Origin: a virus
Strand: one strand, 5' to 3'
IMG/VR virus record: IMGVR_UViG_3300044997_000902
Location: 1 to 64,000 of that record
Length of the DNA: 64,000 nucleotides
Below are positions 7,933 to 16,808 of this stretch, in pieces (the stretch's first letter is position 1; each line of letters begins with the position of its first letter). A program made the position numbers and the translations under genes. The notes under the pieces were generated by a model. It did no database searches. It saw nothing but the letters and a program-made list of their open reading frames with translations, and was not told the DNA's origin.

Positions 7933-9423
7933 ATGCCTATTTATTCCGTACAGGTCGAGAGACATGTTCTAGGTGGCCTCATAAGGAATCCAGAAATATT
8001 TTTTGATATTTCAAAATTTATATCTGAAAAAGATTTTTTTAATGATGTTCATAGTACTATATTCTCTTGTATTAAAGACGAACTTAATAAGAATAATAAG
8101 ATAGATAAAGTTCTATTGGCTCAAAAAATTAAAAACCTTGGCATATCTTTCAAAGACGAGATTGATATATTTTCATATATTGATGCACTTGCATTAACTC
8201 AAATTAATTCTCAAGGAACAATTAACGCATGCAAAGAATTAAGCAAATTAAAAGTGAGAAGAGAGTTAATGGAAACAGCAGAAAATGTAAAGAAATATGT
8301 TAAAGAAAATGCAGAAGAAAATATAGATGCAATTGTATCTAAAGTAGATGGGATATATAATAATAAAATTAGTCAATATTATATTGAAGGAGAACCTATC
8401 AATTTATTTGAAGAATTGGAGAGCATTATAGAAGAAATAGGTAATAATCCAAGAGATGAAACTGGATTAAAAACTCCATATAATAATTTTAATAATCTAT
8501 ATGGAGGTCTAAAACAAGGGAATATTTATTCGATAGTGAGTAGACCAGGCCAAGGAAAATCAACATGGCTTAATGATATTGGTTATAAGACATCAAATGT
8601 ATCTAATAAAAATACAAAAGCTTTAATCTTAGATACAGAAATGAGCACTTTAGATACTCAAATGCGTTTAGTAGCAAGTATCTCTGGAGTACCACTTTGG
8701 TTTATAGAAACTGGAAATTGGCGAAAAAATCCAGAGATGATTCAGAAAGTCAGAGATGCTTGGCCCAAAGTAAAAAATATGACTCATTATCATTATCATG
8801 TTGCTAATAAAAATATTGACGAAATTTCTTCTATTATAAGAAGATGGTATTATACAAAAGTAGGAAGAGTGAATCAAGCAGTAATCGTATATGACTATAT
8901 TAAATTAACTGGCGAAAAAGTTGGTCAAAACTGGGCCGAGCATCAAGCTATTGGAGACAAAATTGATAAACTTAAAAGAATTTCAGAAGAAATTAAATGT
9001 CCGGTTATTACTGCTATGCAATTAAATAGAACTGGAGAAAATTTTAATAGAAATGCTAATCAGGTAACAGACGACAGCTCTGCAATTGCACTTTCTGATC
9101 GTATGCAATGGTTCGCATCTTTTGTTGGAATCTTTAGAAGAAAGACTCAAGATGAGATACAAGTTGATGGTGAACAATTTGGTACTCATAAACTTATAGC
9201 GATTAAAACTAGATTTCAAGGAAAAGATGGCGCGGGTCATCATGATTTAGTTCGTAGAAGAGTCGGAGAAAATGAATTTAAATATTTCAATAATTATATT
9301 AATTTTGAAGTTAATAATTTCAATGTAGAAGAAAGAGGAACTCTAAGAGAAATTGTAGACGCAGAAAATGAAAGATTGGATTTTGATCAAGAAGGTCAAA
9401 GTGAAGATGGAGAATTACTATGA
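7933..9423 (+). CDS. dnaB: DnaB-like replicative helicase
   Basis: Hexameric 5'-3' helicase that would unwind the phage replication fork. The 496 residues give the full two-domain form. The N-terminal domain begins SVQVERHVLGGLIRNPE, and a linker helix precedes the RecA-like motor. Walker A is SRPGQGKST (residues 203-211), followed by LILDTEMS, the Walker B region VIVYDYIKLTG and the DnaB block ITAMQLNR. A short acidic C-terminal tail (DFDQEGQSEDGELL) may bind partners. It is the first gene of an operon: its stop overlaps thyX by 4 bases, followed by primase and nuclease. The start lies 8 bases after the -10 box. Confidence 0.92.
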   Translation: MPIYSVQVERHVLGGLIRNPEIFFDISKFISEKDFFNDVHSTIFSCIKDELNKNNKIDKVLLAQKIKNLGISFKDEIDIFSYIDALALTQINSQGTINACKELSKLKVRRELMETAENVKKYVKENAEENIDAIVSKVDGIYNNKISQYYIEGEPINLFEELESIIEEIGNNPRDETGLKTPYNNFNNLYGGLKQGNIYSIVSRPGQGKSTWLNDIGYKTSNVSNKNTKALILDTEMSTLDTQMRLVASISGVPLWFIETGNWRKNPEMIQKVRDAWPKVKNMTHYHYHVANKNIDEISSIIRRWYYTKVGRVNQAVIVYDYIKLTGEKVGQNWAEHQAIGDKIDKLKRISEEIKCPVITAMQLNRTGENFNRNANQVTDDSSAIALSDRMQWFASFVGIFRRKTQDEIQVDGEQFGTHKLIAIKTRFQGKDGAGHHDLVRRRVGENEFKYFNNYINFEVNNFNVEERGTLREIVDAENERLDFDQEGQSEDGELL

Positions 9424-10076
9424 ATGTAGAATTAATTTCAATTACAAACCCAGAGATTCAAGTAATAAAAAATGCAGAAGATCTTGTTGCTTATTGCGCC
9501 AGAGTCAGTAATCCATCAAATCAAATGAATATTGAAACATCTCCTAAATTACTTGCGTTTCTCATAAAGCATAAACATTGGTCTCCATTTGAAATGGTGG
9601 ATATGACAGTTGAAATTAAAACAAGTAGAGCAATTGCAGCGCAAATTTTAAGACATAAATCATTTTCATTTCAAGAGTTTAGTCAAAGATATAGTGTTGC
9701 TACAGAATTTGAAGACATTGAATTAAGACTTCAAGGAGATAAAAATCGTCAAGTAGGAGAAAAACTTTTTGATACAAATGATGCAAGATATGAAGATTTA
9801 AAGTCTTCTATCAAAGAAGCTATTTCACTTTCTTCAACTACATATGATAAGATGATAGAGAATGGAATAGCTAAAGAAATCGCAAGAATGATATTGCCAT
9901 TAGCAACTCAAACAACGATGTATATGAAAGGATCTTTGAGAAGTTGGATTCACTATATCGAGTTGCGAACAGAGCAAAACACACAAAAAGAACATAGAGT
10001 AATAGCAGATAAATGTAAAAAGATCTTTACAAAACAATTTCCTGTCATTAGCGAAGCATTAAAATGGACAACATAA
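9420..10076 (+). CDS. thyX: flavin-dependent thymidylate synthase
   Basis: Makes dTMP from dUMP with methylene-tetrahydrofolate, NADPH and FAD, supplying thymidine for an AT-rich genome. Its 218 residues are family length. The signature reads RHKSFSFQEFSQRY from R78; the classical form is RHR-x7-S, so the third residue is Lys here. The C-terminal block GSLRSWIHYIELRTEQNTQKEH contains the expected nucleotide-binding Arg residues. It starts in the helicase stop codon (ATGA) and overlaps the primase start by 13 bases, placing nucleotide supply in the replication operon. Confidence 0.93.
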   Translation: MNVELISITNPEIQVIKNAEDLVAYCARVSNPSNQMNIETSPKLLAFLIKHKHWSPFEMVDMTVEIKTSRAIAAQILRHKSFSFQEFSQRYSVATEFEDIELRLQGDKNRQVGEKLFDTNDARYEDLKSSIKEAISLSSTTYDKMIENGIAKEIARMILPLATQTTMYMKGSLRSWIHYIELRTEQNTQKEHRVIADKCKKIFTKQFPVISEALKWTT

Positions 10077-10972
10077 AAGAATTATTATCTAATCTAGGCT
10101 ACAATTTAAAAGAATATTCAAAAGAATATCGTACAAAGCCTTTGTATAGAGATTCAGATAATGAAAATGTTTTGGTAATCTATAAGGATAGTGGAAAATG
10201 GATTGATTACAAGGAGAATATAACTGGTAATCTTCAAGATTTAGTTAGAATGACACTCAATTTACCTAATAATTTAGAAGCAAAGGAATGGATAAATCAA
10301 AAAACTCCAGTAAATAATACTTTTACAGTTTATAAAAAACCAGAGATTAAACAAGTCAAATGCTATTCCCACGACGTTTTATCAAAGTTAGTCAAAGATC
10401 ATGCATTCTGGCATAAACGTAATATTAGTGATACAACTATGGAAATTTTTGAAGGTGGAATTTTAAAAGAAGGTAGGATGAAAGGTAGATATGTTTTTCC
10501 TATTCTTAATAAAGAAAGACAATTAATAGGAGTAGCAGGAAGAGATATTTTAAATAGAAATGAGAAACTTTGTCCTAAATGGAAATTGGTAGGAGATAAA
10601 GTAGATTGGAAATATCCACTTCAAGTTAATTCTAAAATACTAATTAAATCTAAAGAAGTTATCTTAGTAGAAAGTATAGGAGATATGTTGAATTTATGGG
10701 AAAATGGAATTAAAAATACTATAGTAACTTTTGGACTTAATCTTAGCGTGGGAATTTTAAATACATTATTAATATTAAATCCTAATAAAATTTATCTTTC
10801 ATTTAATAATGATTCAAATAAAAATAACGCAGGAAATCTCGCGGCAGAAAAGACTAAAGAAAAATTACTAAAACATTTTGATCATCATCAAATTAAAATT
10901 AAACTTCCTTCAAAAAAAGACTTTGGAGAAATGTCAAAAGAAGAAATAAATCAATGGAAAACAAACCTTTAA
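10064..10972 (+). CDS. TOPRIM primase (DnaG-like), without zinc finger
   Basis: Probable RNA primase for lagging-strand synthesis. The 302-residue protein has a DnaG-like RNA-polymerase core and a TOPRIM fold: the catalytic E203 is in VESIGD, and D250 is in SFNNDSN at the metal-binding strand. The upstream GRYVFPILNKERQLIGVAGRDI is the usual basic core motif. The N-terminus has no Cys-rich zinc-binding domain; it starts with a helical region and YKDSGKWIDY, a pattern seen in small phage primases. It lies between thyX (13-base overlap) and the Cas4-like nuclease (19-base overlap), and its partner is probably the DnaB-like helicase. Confidence 0.8.
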   Translation: MDNIKELLSNLGYNLKEYSKEYRTKPLYRDSDNENVLVIYKDSGKWIDYKENITGNLQDLVRMTLNLPNNLEAKEWINQKTPVNNTFTVYKKPEIKQVKCYSHDVLSKLVKDHAFWHKRNISDTTMEIFEGGILKEGRMKGRYVFPILNKERQLIGVAGRDILNRNEKLCPKWKLVGDKVDWKYPLQVNSKILIKSKEVILVESIGDMLNLWENGIKNTIVTFGLNLSVGILNTLLILNPNKIYLSFNNDSNKNNAGNLAAEKTKEKLLKHFDHHQIKIKLPSKKDFGEMSKEEINQWKTNL

Positions 10973-11946
10973 AAGTTTTATCTGCTTCTAGAATTAAAAC
11001 CCTAGAGACTTGTTCTTGGGTATATTGGAATAATTATCATACAAAAATTCCACAGACTCAAAACGATGGTGCATTAAGAGGTACGGTTTGTCATAAAATA
11101 TTTGAGATTTTATTAAATAAAAAACACAAAAAACATTTTACATCAATTATAAAAAACAACTCTATCAAAGGAAGTAAACCGATTGAAAGATTAACAAGAA
11201 AATTAATAAATCAAGCTCCATTAGATATGAGCAATTTTGAAATCATTGACGAAATGATATTAGTTGGATTAAAGCACGATTTTTATGGTCAAGATGGTAA
11301 AATTGTAGCACCAGAATATGCTTTTGAAATCAAGAGTGATAGCCCCAGATATCACGTTAAAGGCTTTATTGATAAGCCTATTAAAATGAAAAATAAAATG
11401 CTTATAATTGACTACAAGAGCTCCAAAGCTAAATTTAGGGGTGATGACCTTGAAGCGAATATTCAAGCCATGATGTATAGTCTTGCTAGTAAAAAATTAT
11501 GGCCTAAATTAAAGCCTATTGTAAGATTCCTATTTTTAAGATTTCCAAAGCAGCCAATTCAAGAGCTTGAGTTTGACGACAATCAAATTAAAGGATTTGA
11601 ACACTACCTTGAATATGTTAATGCTCATATTAATAACTTTGATATTAATAGTGCAGAATCTAATTTTGCATCAGATAACCCAAAAAATAAATGGATGTGT
11701 GGAGTAGGAAACTGGAAATGCCCTTACAAAGACTCTTTTGAATATTACGTTAAATTAAATGATAAAAATGAAATTATTGAATCTAATTTTGATGGTAAAT
11801 TTAAAGTCATAGAAGGATTTAAAATAGAAAAAAGAAAATACGCTGGATGCCCAAGGTTTAATAATGTTTCCATAAATCAATCAACAGACGATATTTTAGA
11901 TGAAATGACGTCAAAATCAAAAGACACTTTTGATGATTTATCTTGA
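10954..11946 (+). CDS. Cas4/RecB-like PD-(D/E)XK nuclease with probable Fe-S cluster
   Basis: Predicted exonuclease that could resect DNA ends for the phage recombination system. Start LSASRIKTLETCSW carries C20. GTVCHKIFE supplies the GxxxH-type motif, and the catalytic D153-x-K155 lies in LIIDYKSSK, followed by the QAMMYSLA helix of the RecB family. C249 and C256 (MCGVGNWKC) and C299 (AGCPRF) complete the one-plus-three Cys pattern of the 4Fe-4S cluster in Cas4/AddB. The protein is 330 residues long. No other Cas gene or CRISPR is present, so this is a phage replication or recombination nuclease. Last gene of the helicase operon. Confidence 0.82.
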   Translation: MENKPLKVLSASRIKTLETCSWVYWNNYHTKIPQTQNDGALRGTVCHKIFEILLNKKHKKHFTSIIKNNSIKGSKPIERLTRKLINQAPLDMSNFEIIDEMILVGLKHDFYGQDGKIVAPEYAFEIKSDSPRYHVKGFIDKPIKMKNKMLIIDYKSSKAKFRGDDLEANIQAMMYSLASKKLWPKLKPIVRFLFLRFPKQPIQELEFDDNQIKGFEHYLEYVNAHINNFDINSAESNFASDNPKNKWMCGVGNWKCPYKDSFEYYVKLNDKNEIIESNFDGKFKVIEGFKIEKRKYAGCPRFNNVSINQSTDDILDEMTSKSKDTFDDLS

Positions 11947-11977: not shown

Positions 11978-12739
11978 ATGTACAATACAATACCTTTATT
12001 TAAAAGCCACTTTTCAATAGGTAAAAGTATATTAACTCTTGAAGAAAAGAATGAAGAAGAAAATGAACCAGATTCAATTATACAAATCGCTAGAGATAAT
12101 AAATTAAAAAAATTATTTCTTGTCGAAGACTGCTTTAGCGGCTTTTTGCAAGCTTATAAAAATCTAAAAGCAGCGAATATTGATCTCGTATTCGGTATTA
12201 AATTTGTATTTTGTGACAACATATCAAATAAGAATGAGGAAGAATTAAAAAAGCATCATAAATTAATATTATTTACTAATGGTGACGAAGGGTATAAGAC
12301 GTTAATTAAATTATGGACAAAAGCCAATGTTGATGGTTTTTACTATACGCCTAGATTGGATATGAATATTTTAAAAGAAAATTTTAACGATGGTATTAAA
12401 ATTGCTATACCATTTTATGATAATTTTATATTTAATAACTCTTTTAAAGGATATCAATGTTTGCCTTTTATTGAAAATTATAAACCATCTGTTTTTATAG
12501 AAAATAATAAATTAATTTTTGACGGTTTAATCAAGAATAAAATGGAAGATTTTGCAAAATTAAACAAATTAGATTTAATAAAAACAAAAAGCATTTATTA
12601 TAAAAATAGAAAAGATTTTAAAAGTTTTTTAACTTTTAGATGCATTAATAATCGAACCACACTAAATAAACCAGAGATGGAACATATGTCTAGTAATGAA
12701 TTTTGTTTTGAAAGCTGGAAGGAACAAAATCATGGATGA
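11978..12739 (+). CDS. stand-alone PHP domain of DNA polymerase III alpha
   Basis: This 253-residue protein corresponds to the N-terminal PHP domain that is normally fused to the polymerase. It opens PLFKSHFSIGKSIL (H11), then A-R-D-N-K...FLVEDCFSGF (D51), then LVFGIKFVFC and an ILFTNGDEGY strand, all in the order of bacterial DnaE N-termini (LHxHSxYS, TDH, GxE). Most metal-binding His residues are lost, so it is probably structural rather than catalytic. It ends just where the palm/fingers gene at 13649 would begin. The proofreading exonuclease starts inside its last codons (8-base overlap). The role follows from position and resemblance; a profile search would settle it. Confidence 0.6.
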   Translation: MYNTIPLFKSHFSIGKSILTLEEKNEEENEPDSIIQIARDNKLKKLFLVEDCFSGFLQAYKNLKAANIDLVFGIKFVFCDNISNKNEEELKKHHKLILFTNGDEGYKTLIKLWTKANVDGFYYTPRLDMNILKENFNDGIKIAIPFYDNFIFNNSFKGYQCLPFIENYKPSVFIENNKLIFDGLIKNKMEDFAKLNKLDLIKTKSIYYKNRKDFKSFLTFRCINNRTTLNKPEMEHMSSNEFCFESWKEQNHG

Positions 12740-13373
12740 ACATCTTTTAAGATTTGATAAAAGCAAGACTTTTTTATTTATAGATTGCGAGACGTTTAAT
12801 CTATGTTTAAATTTTTGTCATAATTTACCTTGGCAAATCGCTATGTTAAAATGTCAAGGCGATAGGATTATAGAATCCAAGGATATACATCTTAGATGGA
12901 AGACTCATTTAAAAATAAGTAAAGATGCAGCAAAAATTACAAGATTTGATCCCAAGACAATAGAAAAGAAAGGCATTGATCCAGAAGCATTTTTTCCTAC
13001 ATTAAAAGATTGGATAGATAAAACAGATTATATCGTTGGTCATAATATAATAGGATTTGATTTATATATAATTAATGAATATTACAAATTTATGGAAATT
13101 GAACCGGTTGATCTATTATCTAAATCTATAGATACAAATTTATTATATAAAGGAATCAAAACTGGAAAATCTTATAACCCTAAAAAAGAGAGTTTACAAG
13201 AATATATGTATAAACTTTATCATACGAAATTTAAAAATATAAGAACAAATTTAACTGCTACTGGAAAAGATTTGAATATTCAGCATGATTATGATTCTTT
13301 ACATAATGCTCTTTCAGATCTAGAATTAAATTTTAAAGTCTGGAATAAAATTAAATATATGGTCAACATTTAA
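12732..13373 (+). CDS. DnaQ-like 3'-5' proofreading exonuclease (DEDDh)
   Basis: Predicted epsilon-type exonuclease that removes misincorporated bases. Exo I is FIDCETF with D18 and E20, Exo II is VGHNIIGFD, and Exo III is HNALSD with H191 and D196, defining the DEDDh class. The 213-residue length is that of a single exonuclease domain. I chose the ATG at 12732, which follows an AAGGAA ribosome site. An in-frame ATG at 12696 would add 12 residues before the conserved start. It lies between the two halves of DNA polymerase III alpha and overlaps the PHP gene by 8 bases, so equal production with the polymerase is likely. Confidence 0.85.
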   Translation: MDEHLLRFDKSKTFLFIDCETFNLCLNFCHNLPWQIAMLKCQGDRIIESKDIHLRWKTHLKISKDAAKITRFDPKTIEKKGIDPEAFFPTLKDWIDKTDYIVGHNIIGFDLYIINEYYKFMEIEPVDLLSKSIDTNLLYKGIKTGKSYNPKKESLQEYMYKLYHTKFKNIRTNLTATGKDLNIQHDYDSLHNALSDLELNFKVWNKIKYMVNI

Positions 13374-13402
13374 TTGCATTCTAAATAAGAAAGGAATATA
13401 AT
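13374..13402 (+). promoter_or_regulatory. sigma70-type promoter, predicted leaderless start
   Basis: TTGCAT (13374-13379), 17-base spacer, TATAAT (13397-13402), then 8 bases to the ATG at 13411. An AAGGAA also lies inside the spacer, but it would be upstream of the predicted transcript start. Confidence 0.55.
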
Positions 13403-13410
13403 AACTAATT

Positions 13411-13665
13411 ATGGCATCAATGGATTTTATATACGATATTCTCAATAAATTTGAGAAAGAAAATATTGATTATCTTTTAATAACATTACAGCATGGAAAA
13501 ACGAATAGTAAAGCTGACGTATTTTACTCATTAAATAATGAAGAGAGATCATTTGAAGCCTTGAAAGAGGGTTTAACTGAATTTCAATCAAATATAGATA
13601 AATCTATAAATAAACATAGATCAAATAAAAAGCGTAAAAGAAAAAAGGATGACGACGAATATTGA
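13411..13665 (+). CDS. hypothetical 84-residue protein with Lys-rich tail
   Basis: Unrecognised small protein: IYDILNKFEKENIDYLLITL, a Ser/Asn-rich middle, a helix, then KKRKRKKDDDEY. Size, layout and basic tail resemble the 82-residue gene at 7647, hinting at distant paralogy. Its last 17 bases overlap the polymerase core gene, so it is co-translated with it. A DNA- or polymerase-associated role is inferred from context only. Confidence 0.65.
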   Translation: MASMDFIYDILNKFEKENIDYLLITLQHGKTNSKADVFYSLNNEERSFEALKEGLTEFQSNIDKSINKHRSNKKRKRKKDDDEY

Positions 13666-16186
13666 TTTTATAAATTCATTCAAAAAGATTGAATTACCTC
13701 TTTATGGGGTAAGACTACCAGAATTTAAAGTTAAATCAGAGTATAAAAGGGGTCTAGCTTTATCTGAAGACGCCTCTAATACAGATTTCTTAAAGAAGCT
13801 GGCATATTCTAAATTGCCAGTAGGCAAAGACTATAAAAAACGTCTTGATCATGAATTTGAAATTATAGAAGATTTAGGTTTCATTGACTATATAATCTTA
13901 GTCTGGTTAGTTATTAATTATTGCAAGGAAAATAAAATTCCTACAGGTTTAGGAAGAGGAAGCGCAGCGGGAAGTCTTATTTTATTTTTAATAGGAGTAA
14001 CTAAGATTGATCCAATTAAACACAATCTTTACTTCGAAAGATTTATATCTAAAATTAGAGCTAAAAAGCAAGTCGTAAATGGAATAACATATCTGGATGG
14101 AAGTTTGATGTGTGATGTTGATTTAGATATTTGTTATTATAATCGTCATAAAGTAATCGATTTCTTAAACGAAATATTTCCAAATAGAATTAGTAAAATA
14201 TTAACCTTTAATACTCTTAGTGGAAAGTTATTAATCAAGGAGTGCGGAAAAATAGTAGAAGAAAAAAGTGAAACAGAGATGACTAGTGTTAGCTCTTTGA
14301 TTCCAAAGATATTCGGACAGGTTAAAGATATCTCTGAAGCCTATCGAGATGTTGAAAAATTTAAAGAATGGTGTGATGAAAATCCTGATATTTATAGTAT
14401 AGCTTTGAAATTAAGAAATTTAATTAAGAATAAAGGTGTTCATCCTTCGGGAGTTCAAATTTCTCATAGTCCTTTGTCAGAAACTTGCCCATTAGAATTA
14501 TCTTCAGATAAAGAACAAGTAAGCGCTTTTGATATGAACGATATTAGTCAGTTCAATGTCAAGTTAGACCTTTTAGGCTTAAGGAGTGTTTCTGTAGTTT
14601 ATGATGTATGCAGCATGATAAATAAAAATATTGAAGATATAGACATAGAAGATAATTTTATATATCAACAATTACAATTTTTAAGAAGTCCACATGGACT
14701 GTTTCAGATTGAAGCAGATACAAATTTTAAAGTTTGCAAAAAAGTTAAACCAAGAAATTCAGAAGAGCTGAGCGCAGTACTAGCATTGGCAAGACCTGGA
14801 GCTTTGCAATTCGTAGATCAATATGCAAAATATGTAGAAACTGGAGAATTCCAATCTATCCATCCATTTTTTGACGATATCTTAAAACGAACAGGTGGAG
14901 TAGCCTTATATCAAGAACAGTTGATGCAAATGGCAAGTAAGATAGGTTTCACTTTAGATGAAGCAGAAATTTTAAGAAGAATCGTAGGAAAGAAAAAAGT
15001 AGAAGAAATTAAGGCTTGGAAAGAGAAAATTGAAAAGAAATGCGTTAAGAATAATTTACCAAAAGAGGTAGGCGAAGTTTTATGGAAGATTTTAGAAGAT
15101 TCTGTGAATTATTCTTTTAATGCAAGTCATAGTCAAAGTTACGCAGCATTAGCTGCAATAACTATTTATTTGAAATTTAAATATCCTAAAGAATTTTTTC
15201 TCTCCTTGCTTAAAATGACAAGATTCGAGCCTGACCCAATAACAGAAATATCTAAAATTCATAAAGAAATGGATTTATTCGATATCAAATTATTACCTCC
15301 ACATATTGTTAAATCTGAAATGGATTTTAGTGTAGAAGGAAATAATATAAGATTTGGTCTTCTTTCTATTAAAGGAATTTCAGATAAATCAATTGAAAGA
15401 CTAAATAATTTTAGGAATAAATATGCTACAAAATTTGATGTATTTAAATCTGCTCAACAGGCTAAATTATCTATTAGAGTTTTATCTCCTCTTATACAGG
15501 CTGGAGCATTAGAAAATTTTAAACAATCAAGAAGTAAAGTTGTATTAGAAGCTCAATTATGGAATATATTAACTCAGAATGAGCAAAAATACGCGATGAT
15601 GTATGGAGAAAAATTTGATTATGATTTATTCAAAATTATTAAATTTTTGAATGCCACGAAAGATGAAAAAGGCAAGTTTATAATTAAAGAAGCTAGGCTT
15701 GAAACAATTAGAAAATCTTATGATCCATACAAAAAGATATACGAACAAAATAGCAAAAATGAAAGATTTGCAAATTGGTATTATGAAAATAAATTATTAG
15801 GTTATACATATAACACTACATTAAAAGATATTTTCTCAGATCAAAAGCCAGATCTTCTCAATATAAGAGAAGTCAATGAAGCTCCTCAAAACCTACCAGT
15901 ACTATTTATAGGAGTTATTAAAGATGAATATTTGGGTACATCTAATAACAGTAAGAAAACAAGATATTTAAGATTAAATGTCCAAGATGAAACATCTACA
16001 ATTAACGCTCTTATATTTAATGATAAGATTGAAGAATGTAAAGAGATGAACAGTTTTCTGCCCGAAGAAAATAATATTGTTATTGTAAAAGGTAAAAAGA
16101 AAAGTGAAGATGCGGTTTTTGCAGACCTAATAGCCGTTCAAGATCATAAAATATTTATGAAATTAGGAGAAATTAAAGAAAAATAA
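13649..16186 (+). CDS. dnaE: DNA polymerase III alpha, catalytic core without PHP domain
   Basis: The main replicative polymerase of the phage. It begins within the palm region: GLGRGSAAGSLILFLIGVTK and then CDVDLDICYY with D156, D158 and D160 as metal-binding residues. LRNLIKNKGVHPSGVQIS, LARPGALQFVDQYAKYV and YQEQLMQMASKIGF are DnaE fingers signatures. SFNASHSQSYAALA is also typical. Helix-hairpin-helix and OB-fold parts (LPVLFIGVIKDEYLG...VKGKKK) finish the 845 residues. A full bacterial DnaE has about 1160 residues and starts with a PHP domain. Here that part is a separate gene at 11978, with the proofreading exonuclease between. No beta-clamp gene is visible in the window. Confidence 0.92.
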   Translation: MTTNIDFINSFKKIELPLYGVRLPEFKVKSEYKRGLALSEDASNTDFLKKLAYSKLPVGKDYKKRLDHEFEIIEDLGFIDYIILVWLVINYCKENKIPTGLGRGSAAGSLILFLIGVTKIDPIKHNLYFERFISKIRAKKQVVNGITYLDGSLMCDVDLDICYYNRHKVIDFLNEIFPNRISKILTFNTLSGKLLIKECGKIVEEKSETEMTSVSSLIPKIFGQVKDISEAYRDVEKFKEWCDENPDIYSIALKLRNLIKNKGVHPSGVQISHSPLSETCPLELSSDKEQVSAFDMNDISQFNVKLDLLGLRSVSVVYDVCSMINKNIEDIDIEDNFIYQQLQFLRSPHGLFQIEADTNFKVCKKVKPRNSEELSAVLALARPGALQFVDQYAKYVETGEFQSIHPFFDDILKRTGGVALYQEQLMQMASKIGFTLDEAEILRRIVGKKKVEEIKAWKEKIEKKCVKNNLPKEVGEVLWKILEDSVNYSFNASHSQSYAALAAITIYLKFKYPKEFFLSLLKMTRFEPDPITEISKIHKEMDLFDIKLLPPHIVKSEMDFSVEGNNIRFGLLSIKGISDKSIERLNNFRNKYATKFDVFKSAQQAKLSIRVLSPLIQAGALENFKQSRSKVVLEAQLWNILTQNEQKYAMMYGEKFDYDLFKIIKFLNATKDEKGKFIIKEARLETIRKSYDPYKKIYEQNSKNERFANWYYENKLLGYTYNTTLKDIFSDQKPDLLNIREVNEAPQNLPVLFIGVIKDEYLGTSNNSKKTRYLRLNVQDETSTINALIFNDKIEECKEMNSFLPEENNIVIVKGKKKSEDAVFADLIAVQDHKIFMKLGEIKEK

Positions 16187-16223: not shown

Positions 16224-16808
16224 ATGATACAAATATATAAACCAACACCTCGTAATACTGGTACAGCTTGTAGCTTTTCATTCAATAATCTTGATGGTAA
16301 TTTTTATTTAAATTTAATTAAACAAGCCTCTTGGAATGATCAAAAGAAAATCGGTAGTTTTGCTGAAAACGCTCAAAATCCAGAAAAAAAGGTAGTAGTT
16401 AAATTATCTAAAATTGAAGCGTGTGGCATTTTAGATGCTCTCGACCACAATAGAACAGCAGATTTTTTTCATAATTCAGAAAATCAAAAATTAGGTATTA
16501 AATTTTCTCCCTATATTAGGGAGGACAAACAAATTGGGTATAGCCTAAATGTTATAAAAAATTCCAAAACTCAGACCGCTCAGCCAGCAGTAAGTTTTCT
16601 TATCGGATTTACATTCTCAGAAGCGAGACTTGTCGCAGAATATATTAAATTTGGCTTGGGGCATATATTCTCTACAGAGCGTAGCGAAGAAATAAAAAAG
16701 TTAAAAAATATTAAATCAAAAGCTATCGAAGATAGAAAGCACAAGGACCAAGTAGAAGACTTAACAGAAGAAGGCAATCTCTCAGAACAAGAAGACGATC
16801 TTTGGTAA
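16224..16808 (+). CDS. putative single-stranded DNA-binding protein
   Basis: A 194-residue protein with a beta-rich N-terminal domain (YKPTPRNTGTACSFSFNNLD...VVVKLSKIEACGILDAL...IKFSPYI) of the kind seen in small phage ssDNA-binding proteins of the PC4/Whirly-like group. A linker helix and a strongly acidic tail ending EQEDDLW follow. The acidic tip is a hallmark of SSB proteins, which use it to recruit partners. No other SSB is visible in the replication block, which supports the call. The family assignment is inference: I recognise the layout, not a diagnostic motif. Confidence 0.5.
   Translation: MIQIYKPTPRNTGTACSFSFNNLDGNFYLNLIKQASWNDQKKIGSFAENAQNPEKKVVVKLSKIEACGILDALDHNRTADFFHNSENQKLGIKFSPYIREDKQIGYSLNVIKNSKTQTAQPAVSFLIGFTFSEARLVAEYIKFGLGHIFSTERSEEIKKLKNIKSKAIEDRKHKDQVEDLTEEGNLSEQEDDLW

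Follow-up and report, generated by a model that had tools for sequence, protein, structure and literature searches.

A large lineage of uncultivated, mostly aquatic phages carries a C-family (DnaE-type) replicase in which the PHP domain has a gene of its own, separate from that of the polymerase core, and the gene of a proofreading-type exonuclease lies between the two. The reading we favour, to which we assign a probability of roughly two in three, is that the detached PHP protein is catalytically dead and serves in trans as a structural subunit that aids the core and the placement of the proofreader. The window analysed here is a stretch of 64,000 nucleotides from a viral record of 68 kb (IMGVR_UViG_3300044997_000902), and the genes concerned are the following:

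7933-9423, + strand: DnaB helicase, conserved replication block
9420-10076, + strand: ThyX, conserved replication block
10064-10972, + strand: Toprim primase, conserved replication block
10954-11946, + strand: RecB-like PD-(D/E)XK nuclease, conserved replication block
11978-12739, + strand: stand-alone PHP protein, predicted to be catalytically degenerate, 253 aa, homologue of the PHP domain at the N-terminus of DnaE
12732-13373, + strand: DEDDh 3'-5' exonuclease, 213 aa, putative proofreader that lacks a C-terminal tail of epsilon type
13411-13665, + strand: 84-aa protein, predicted helix-strand-strand-helix, confined to the closer part of the family
13649-16186, + strand: polymerase core of DnaE type (C-family), 845 aa, lacking PHP, with palm, fingers, HhH and a weak OB
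16224-16808, + strand: 194-aa protein, C-terminal tail acidic, weak similarity to Whirly, same replication block

The four open reading frames described in the initial annotation (PHP-like protein, exonuclease, 84-aa protein and core) all lie where it had placed them; the PHP and exonuclease genes overlap by 8 nt, and the 84-aa and polymerase genes by 17 nt. The gene at 16224-16808, which is conserved 3' of the polymerase, gave a Whirly match below the cut-off (E = 0.0059), and its acidic-tailed product may possibly be an unusual single-strand DNA-binding protein.

The 253-aa protein had been called PHP-like, with a PF02811 (PHP) profile search proposed as the check and the lack of any PHP match as grounds for abandoning the idea. 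The search returned a match at E = 1.5e-11, above the family cut-off, and the assignment is borne out by two further lines of evidence. The protein also aligns to residues 53-254 of Thermus aquaticus DnaE. Profile-profile comparison with the PHPs of other DnaEs gave a probability of 99.6 (E = 1.9e-23), and an AlphaFold2 model (pLDDT 81.8, pTM 0.83) searched against the PDB ranked DnaE PHP domains first (3e0d, E = 8e-12, TM 0.71), so that the predicted fold is nearer to these than to the stand-alone PHP enzymes. The model also matches 4gx9/4gx8, a chimera of the isolated E. coli PHP and the epsilon tail, which indicates that a PHP domain folds without the rest of alpha. Across the family, 50 of 51 members match PHP and no other domain. 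The PHP protein of one locus (L058:1751-3070) is 439 aa long and has an additional, unassigned domain at its C-terminus.

Active bacterial PHP domains keep nine metal ligands, HHDHEH[C/H]DH (PMC12926913). All nine are present in seven of seven reference phage DnaEs; at most one of the nine (H11) is kept across 119 distinct split PHP proteins, scored on an alignment that is uncertain at ligands 1-3. The residues that replace the ligands are nearly fixed (S13, K/R75, K95, S205 and Y207). Judged from these substitutions, the split PHP appears to be catalytically dead, and the idea of an active PHP serving as a second proofreader was rejected because the metal ligands are gone.

The exonuclease matches Pfam RNase_T (E = 2.8e-12; domain 15-202 of 213 aa) and its active site is intact, with the DEDDh residues D18, E20, D110, H191 and D196 invariant among 39 sequences. 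Its reading frame is open from 12696 (225 aa), and the first methionine conserved without exception in the relatives lies at 12732, giving 213 aa. Although the protein qualifies as a DEDDh enzyme by its active site, the PHP-binding tail that marks a strict Pol III epsilon (DnaQ) is absent, the chain stopping about 11 residues past the catalytic domain. In E. coli, epsilon binds PHP via its C-terminal tail (PMC3666897); because the phage exonuclease has none, a PHP-exonuclease contact cannot go via such a tail, and the suggestion that the exonuclease docks as in E. coli was not supported. A tblastn search with the exonuclease gave no match in the cultured-phage collection. Roughly half of the exonucleases have a clamp-motif match; these matches differ among themselves and are probably due to chance.

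The 845-aa protein matches the Pfam profiles DNA_pol3_alpha (1.4e-55), finger (1.6e-32) and HHH_6 (3.7e-19), and no PHP domain was found in it by the Pfam search. The catalytic aspartates at 156, 158 and 307 (D156, D158 and D307) are invariant in the cores, and palm and finger domains with such aspartates mark a C-family polymerase. A PHP domain in the same chain is typical of these enzymes, though not strictly defining, and in each of the 153 complete loci of the family PHP has a gene of its own. In sequence comparison, the last conserved PHP motif marks the end of the PHP protein, and the chain of the core opens with the helix that precedes the palm, which places the cut at a domain border; the linker that fused DnaEs have between those points is mostly without counterpart in the PHP protein. 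The proposal of a DnaE-type polymerase, split at the PHP/palm boundary and with a proofreading-type exonuclease gene between the parts, thus holds.

At the other end of the core the OB match is weak (E = 0.0082) and is followed by 27 residues before the chain stops. No tau-binding C-terminal domain was found in the core, nothing following the OB, and the order typical of DnaE1 (OB, then tau-binding domain) is absent; this domain is also lost in DnaE2 (PMC3919608). No conserved clamp motif of the form Qxx[LMI][FL] was found in the core by a scan that finds it in E. coli and in only some reference DnaEs. A clamp (PF02768) was not found in 14 related records of 91-184 kb, nor a clamp loader (PF13177) in 15 long related records, all of them possibly fragments. 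Since neither motif, clamp nor clamp loader was found and the core stops after the OB, processivity may depend on the host clamp, bound by way of a motif that escaped recognition, or may have another source.

Five loci have a core that is further divided into two open reading frames (L165:11608-14592, L192:5983-9867, L199:7372-11250, L200:7372-10576 and L208:7374-11185). Each frame bears half of an apparent intein, at the site SFNK/C...N/SHS, and the two frames lie about 20 to 920 nt apart. From their sequences, these intein halves in a phage DnaE core are probably natural split inteins.

The 84-aa open reading frame is a real coding gene, under purifying selection (dN/dS 0.05-0.22). Sequence searches with the protein found no reliable known family, and its model (pLDDT 80.5, pTM 0.55) gave no significant match in the PDB (best E = 0.39). 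Its description as basic is accurate for the C-terminal tail in the close relatives of the window only; elsewhere the tail is short or acidic. The gene is absent from more divergent relatives, so the four-part enzyme envisaged in the initial annotation is not general, and a role of the protein as a required fourth subunit is not supported.

Relatives were collected from viral contigs and bacterial genome bins, and loci were counted as distinct by sequence. Of 165 distinct loci, 153 have all three main genes; the order is PHP-exonuclease-polymerase in every one of them, and a fusion occurs in none. Recurrence in 153 distinct loci excludes chance as the source of the arrangement. Ten of the remaining 12 loci are cut at a contig end and two are real exceptions: the PHP gene of L190 (1-597) is upstream of a helicase gene, in a record of 31 kb that gave no exonuclease match, and L187 has neither PHP nor exonuclease in 16.7 kb, both records possibly being fragments. 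A PHP gene of this family is present on at least 533 viral contigs. In a tree of 31 rows, quickly built and with long branches, the split cores group together as a single clade (SH-aLRT 100) to which no fused polymerase belongs. The tree does not place the sister group; the simplest reading is a single ancestral split of PHP from the core. All parts are under strong purifying selection, with dN/dS between the window and six close relatives at 0.02-0.03 (core), 0.04-0.07 (PHP), 0.06-0.17 (exonuclease) and 0.05-0.22 (84-aa protein), values of which only the direction is safe as many dS estimates are near saturation.

Collinear replication genes are common in phages and do not prove a complex. 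Gene order alone is weak evidence here, because the whole replication block is collinear in the close relatives of the window. A better argument comes from 17 divergent loci, in which the trio is linked and the helicase, primase, RecB-like, ThyX and SSB-like genes were not found in the fetched flanks. The slot between the PHP and exonuclease genes is an insertion hot spot, occupied in many relatives (L018, L033, L040, L046 and L067 among them) by unrelated genes that were judged by eye to be cupin-like, SET-like, HNH-like and others, with the flanking PHP and exonuclease intact. The same split is present on seven contigs from bacterial genomes (L163-L169), in bins assigned to Woesebacteria, Halobacteriovorax, Verrucomicrobiales, Flavobacteriaceae, Lokiarchaeota and Bacteriovorax; these are probably phage contigs swept into the bins, and so are not host evidence. 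One record labelled as phage (L175, MT835632) has a fused DnaE1 beside apparently bacterial housekeeping genes and looks like bacterial DNA.

In bacteria, loss of the PHP metal site accompanies a separate proofreader, the dead domain being kept for structure, and in E. coli the dead PHP stabilises and scaffolds Pol III (PMC3666897). The phage family has the same pairing, a dead PHP with a dedicated exonuclease. Under the favoured reading, an ancestral split would have left the PHP gene separate from the polymerase chain throughout the lineage, and the PHP, its metal site lost, would act in trans as a non-catalytic structural subunit that binds the core at its N-terminal or palm side, in the way known for PHP in cis, and helps to position the dedicated DEDDh exonuclease as the proofreader. 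We infer that the proteins associate physically, that PHP and exonuclease are in contact and that proofreading takes place within the complex. A stronger form, in which the PHP would be a dissociable but obligatory non-enzymatic adaptor between polymerase and proofreader, working with no host clamp and perhaps with the 84-aa protein as an accessory, seems doubtful.

The PHP could instead bind the core only, for folding or stability, with the exonuclease joining in some other way or acting alone. The lack of an epsilon-like tail on the exonuclease would be in keeping with this, as would the reduced whole-enzyme stability and polymerisation caused by PHP mutations in E. coli (PMC3666897), but the PHP and exonuclease genes are directly adjacent and often overlapping in many members, and loss of the metal site accompanies a dedicated exonuclease; we consider a core-only role unlikely. 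Less probable again is a new role, as a ligand sensor or a regulator that binds nucleic acid, for instance, with the detached PHP having ceased to be a subunit of the polymerase. Such a change of function might explain why the former metal pocket has a new, nearly invariant set of residues and why the PHP gene of L190 does not adjoin a polymerase. However, the PHP is retained in every locus of sufficient length, one short record being a possible exception, it stays with the polymerase where the rest of the block does not, and its predicted fold is closest to the PHPs of DnaE and not to stand-alone PHP enzymes.

Breakage of a once intact gene by insertion of a homing endonuclease, intron or intein, or an assembly error or frameshift, has to be weighed as well, since two-piece DnaEs are known from three cultured phages: Cellulophaga phi13:1, Bacillus KLEB27-3 (where an HNH gene is present) and Rossellomorea phiT1. 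The breaks in those phages fall inside the polymerase domain, whereas the split described here is at a domain border, has an exonuclease gene between the parts, each part having its own start, and is fixed across a deep clade under purifying selection. An origin of this kind is highly improbable, and frameshift, assembly error and simple breakage were rejected in view of the 153 loci, the single clade and the purifying selection.

PHP is near universal in the same chain among 1590 bacterial C-family sequences (PMC3919608) and is retained even where its catalytic site is dead, for a reason that is still debated (PMC3919608, PMC3666897). No description of a split-off PHP was found in the literature searched, which was mostly without subscription papers, and the PHP-exonuclease-core arrangement was not found in the cultured phages inspected, which have a fused DnaE or breaks inside the polymerase domain. 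The parts are of known families, and it is the arrangement that is new relative to the literature searched. It suggests that a PHP domain, near universal within the chain elsewhere, is able to function as a loose subunit and that a C-family replicase can be modular, which matters for the annotation of viral contigs, where such a PHP protein may otherwise be annotated as a phosphoesterase. The lineage, in which PHP has long been a separate protein, amounts to a natural domain separation: the effect of PHP on the polymerase could be measured by adding it or leaving it out, and its presumed contact with the exonuclease could be studied with no polymerase present.

Compared with known systems, the phage enzyme shares with the E. 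coli Pol III core (DnaE alpha and DnaQ epsilon) a degenerate PHP, a DnaE-type core and a separate DEDDh exonuclease. It differs in that the E. coli PHP is within the alpha chain and the phage PHP is a separate protein; in addition, E. coli has a PHP-binding C-terminal tail on epsilon and, on alpha, both a clamp motif (QADMF at 920) and a tau-binding C-terminal domain, and none of these three features was found in the proteins of the phage. The Cellulophaga phages phi13:1/phiST, Bacillus KLEB27-3 and Rossellomorea phiT1 likewise make DnaE from two genes, but their break is within the polymerase domain (in phi13:1, one protein covers positions 4-98 of the polymerase profile and the next 100-260), PHP is on the N-terminal part and no exonuclease lies between the parts. 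In PolC, as in the phages, PHP, a DEDDh exonuclease and a C-family core form one functional set, although there the exonuclease sits as an insertion within the PHP domain and all parts belong to a single chain (PMC3919608). The cultured Pbunavirus PB1 also has a DEDDh-type exonuclease gene (RNase_T, 5.2e-18) directly upstream of DnaE (ORF55/ORF56), and its DnaE has a degenerate PHP (Pfam PHP at E = 0.0034 only). PB1 differs from the split family in that PHP and polymerase are one chain of 1035 aa, and with this fused chain it obeys the same rule as bacteria, a degenerate PHP together with a separate exonuclease gene.
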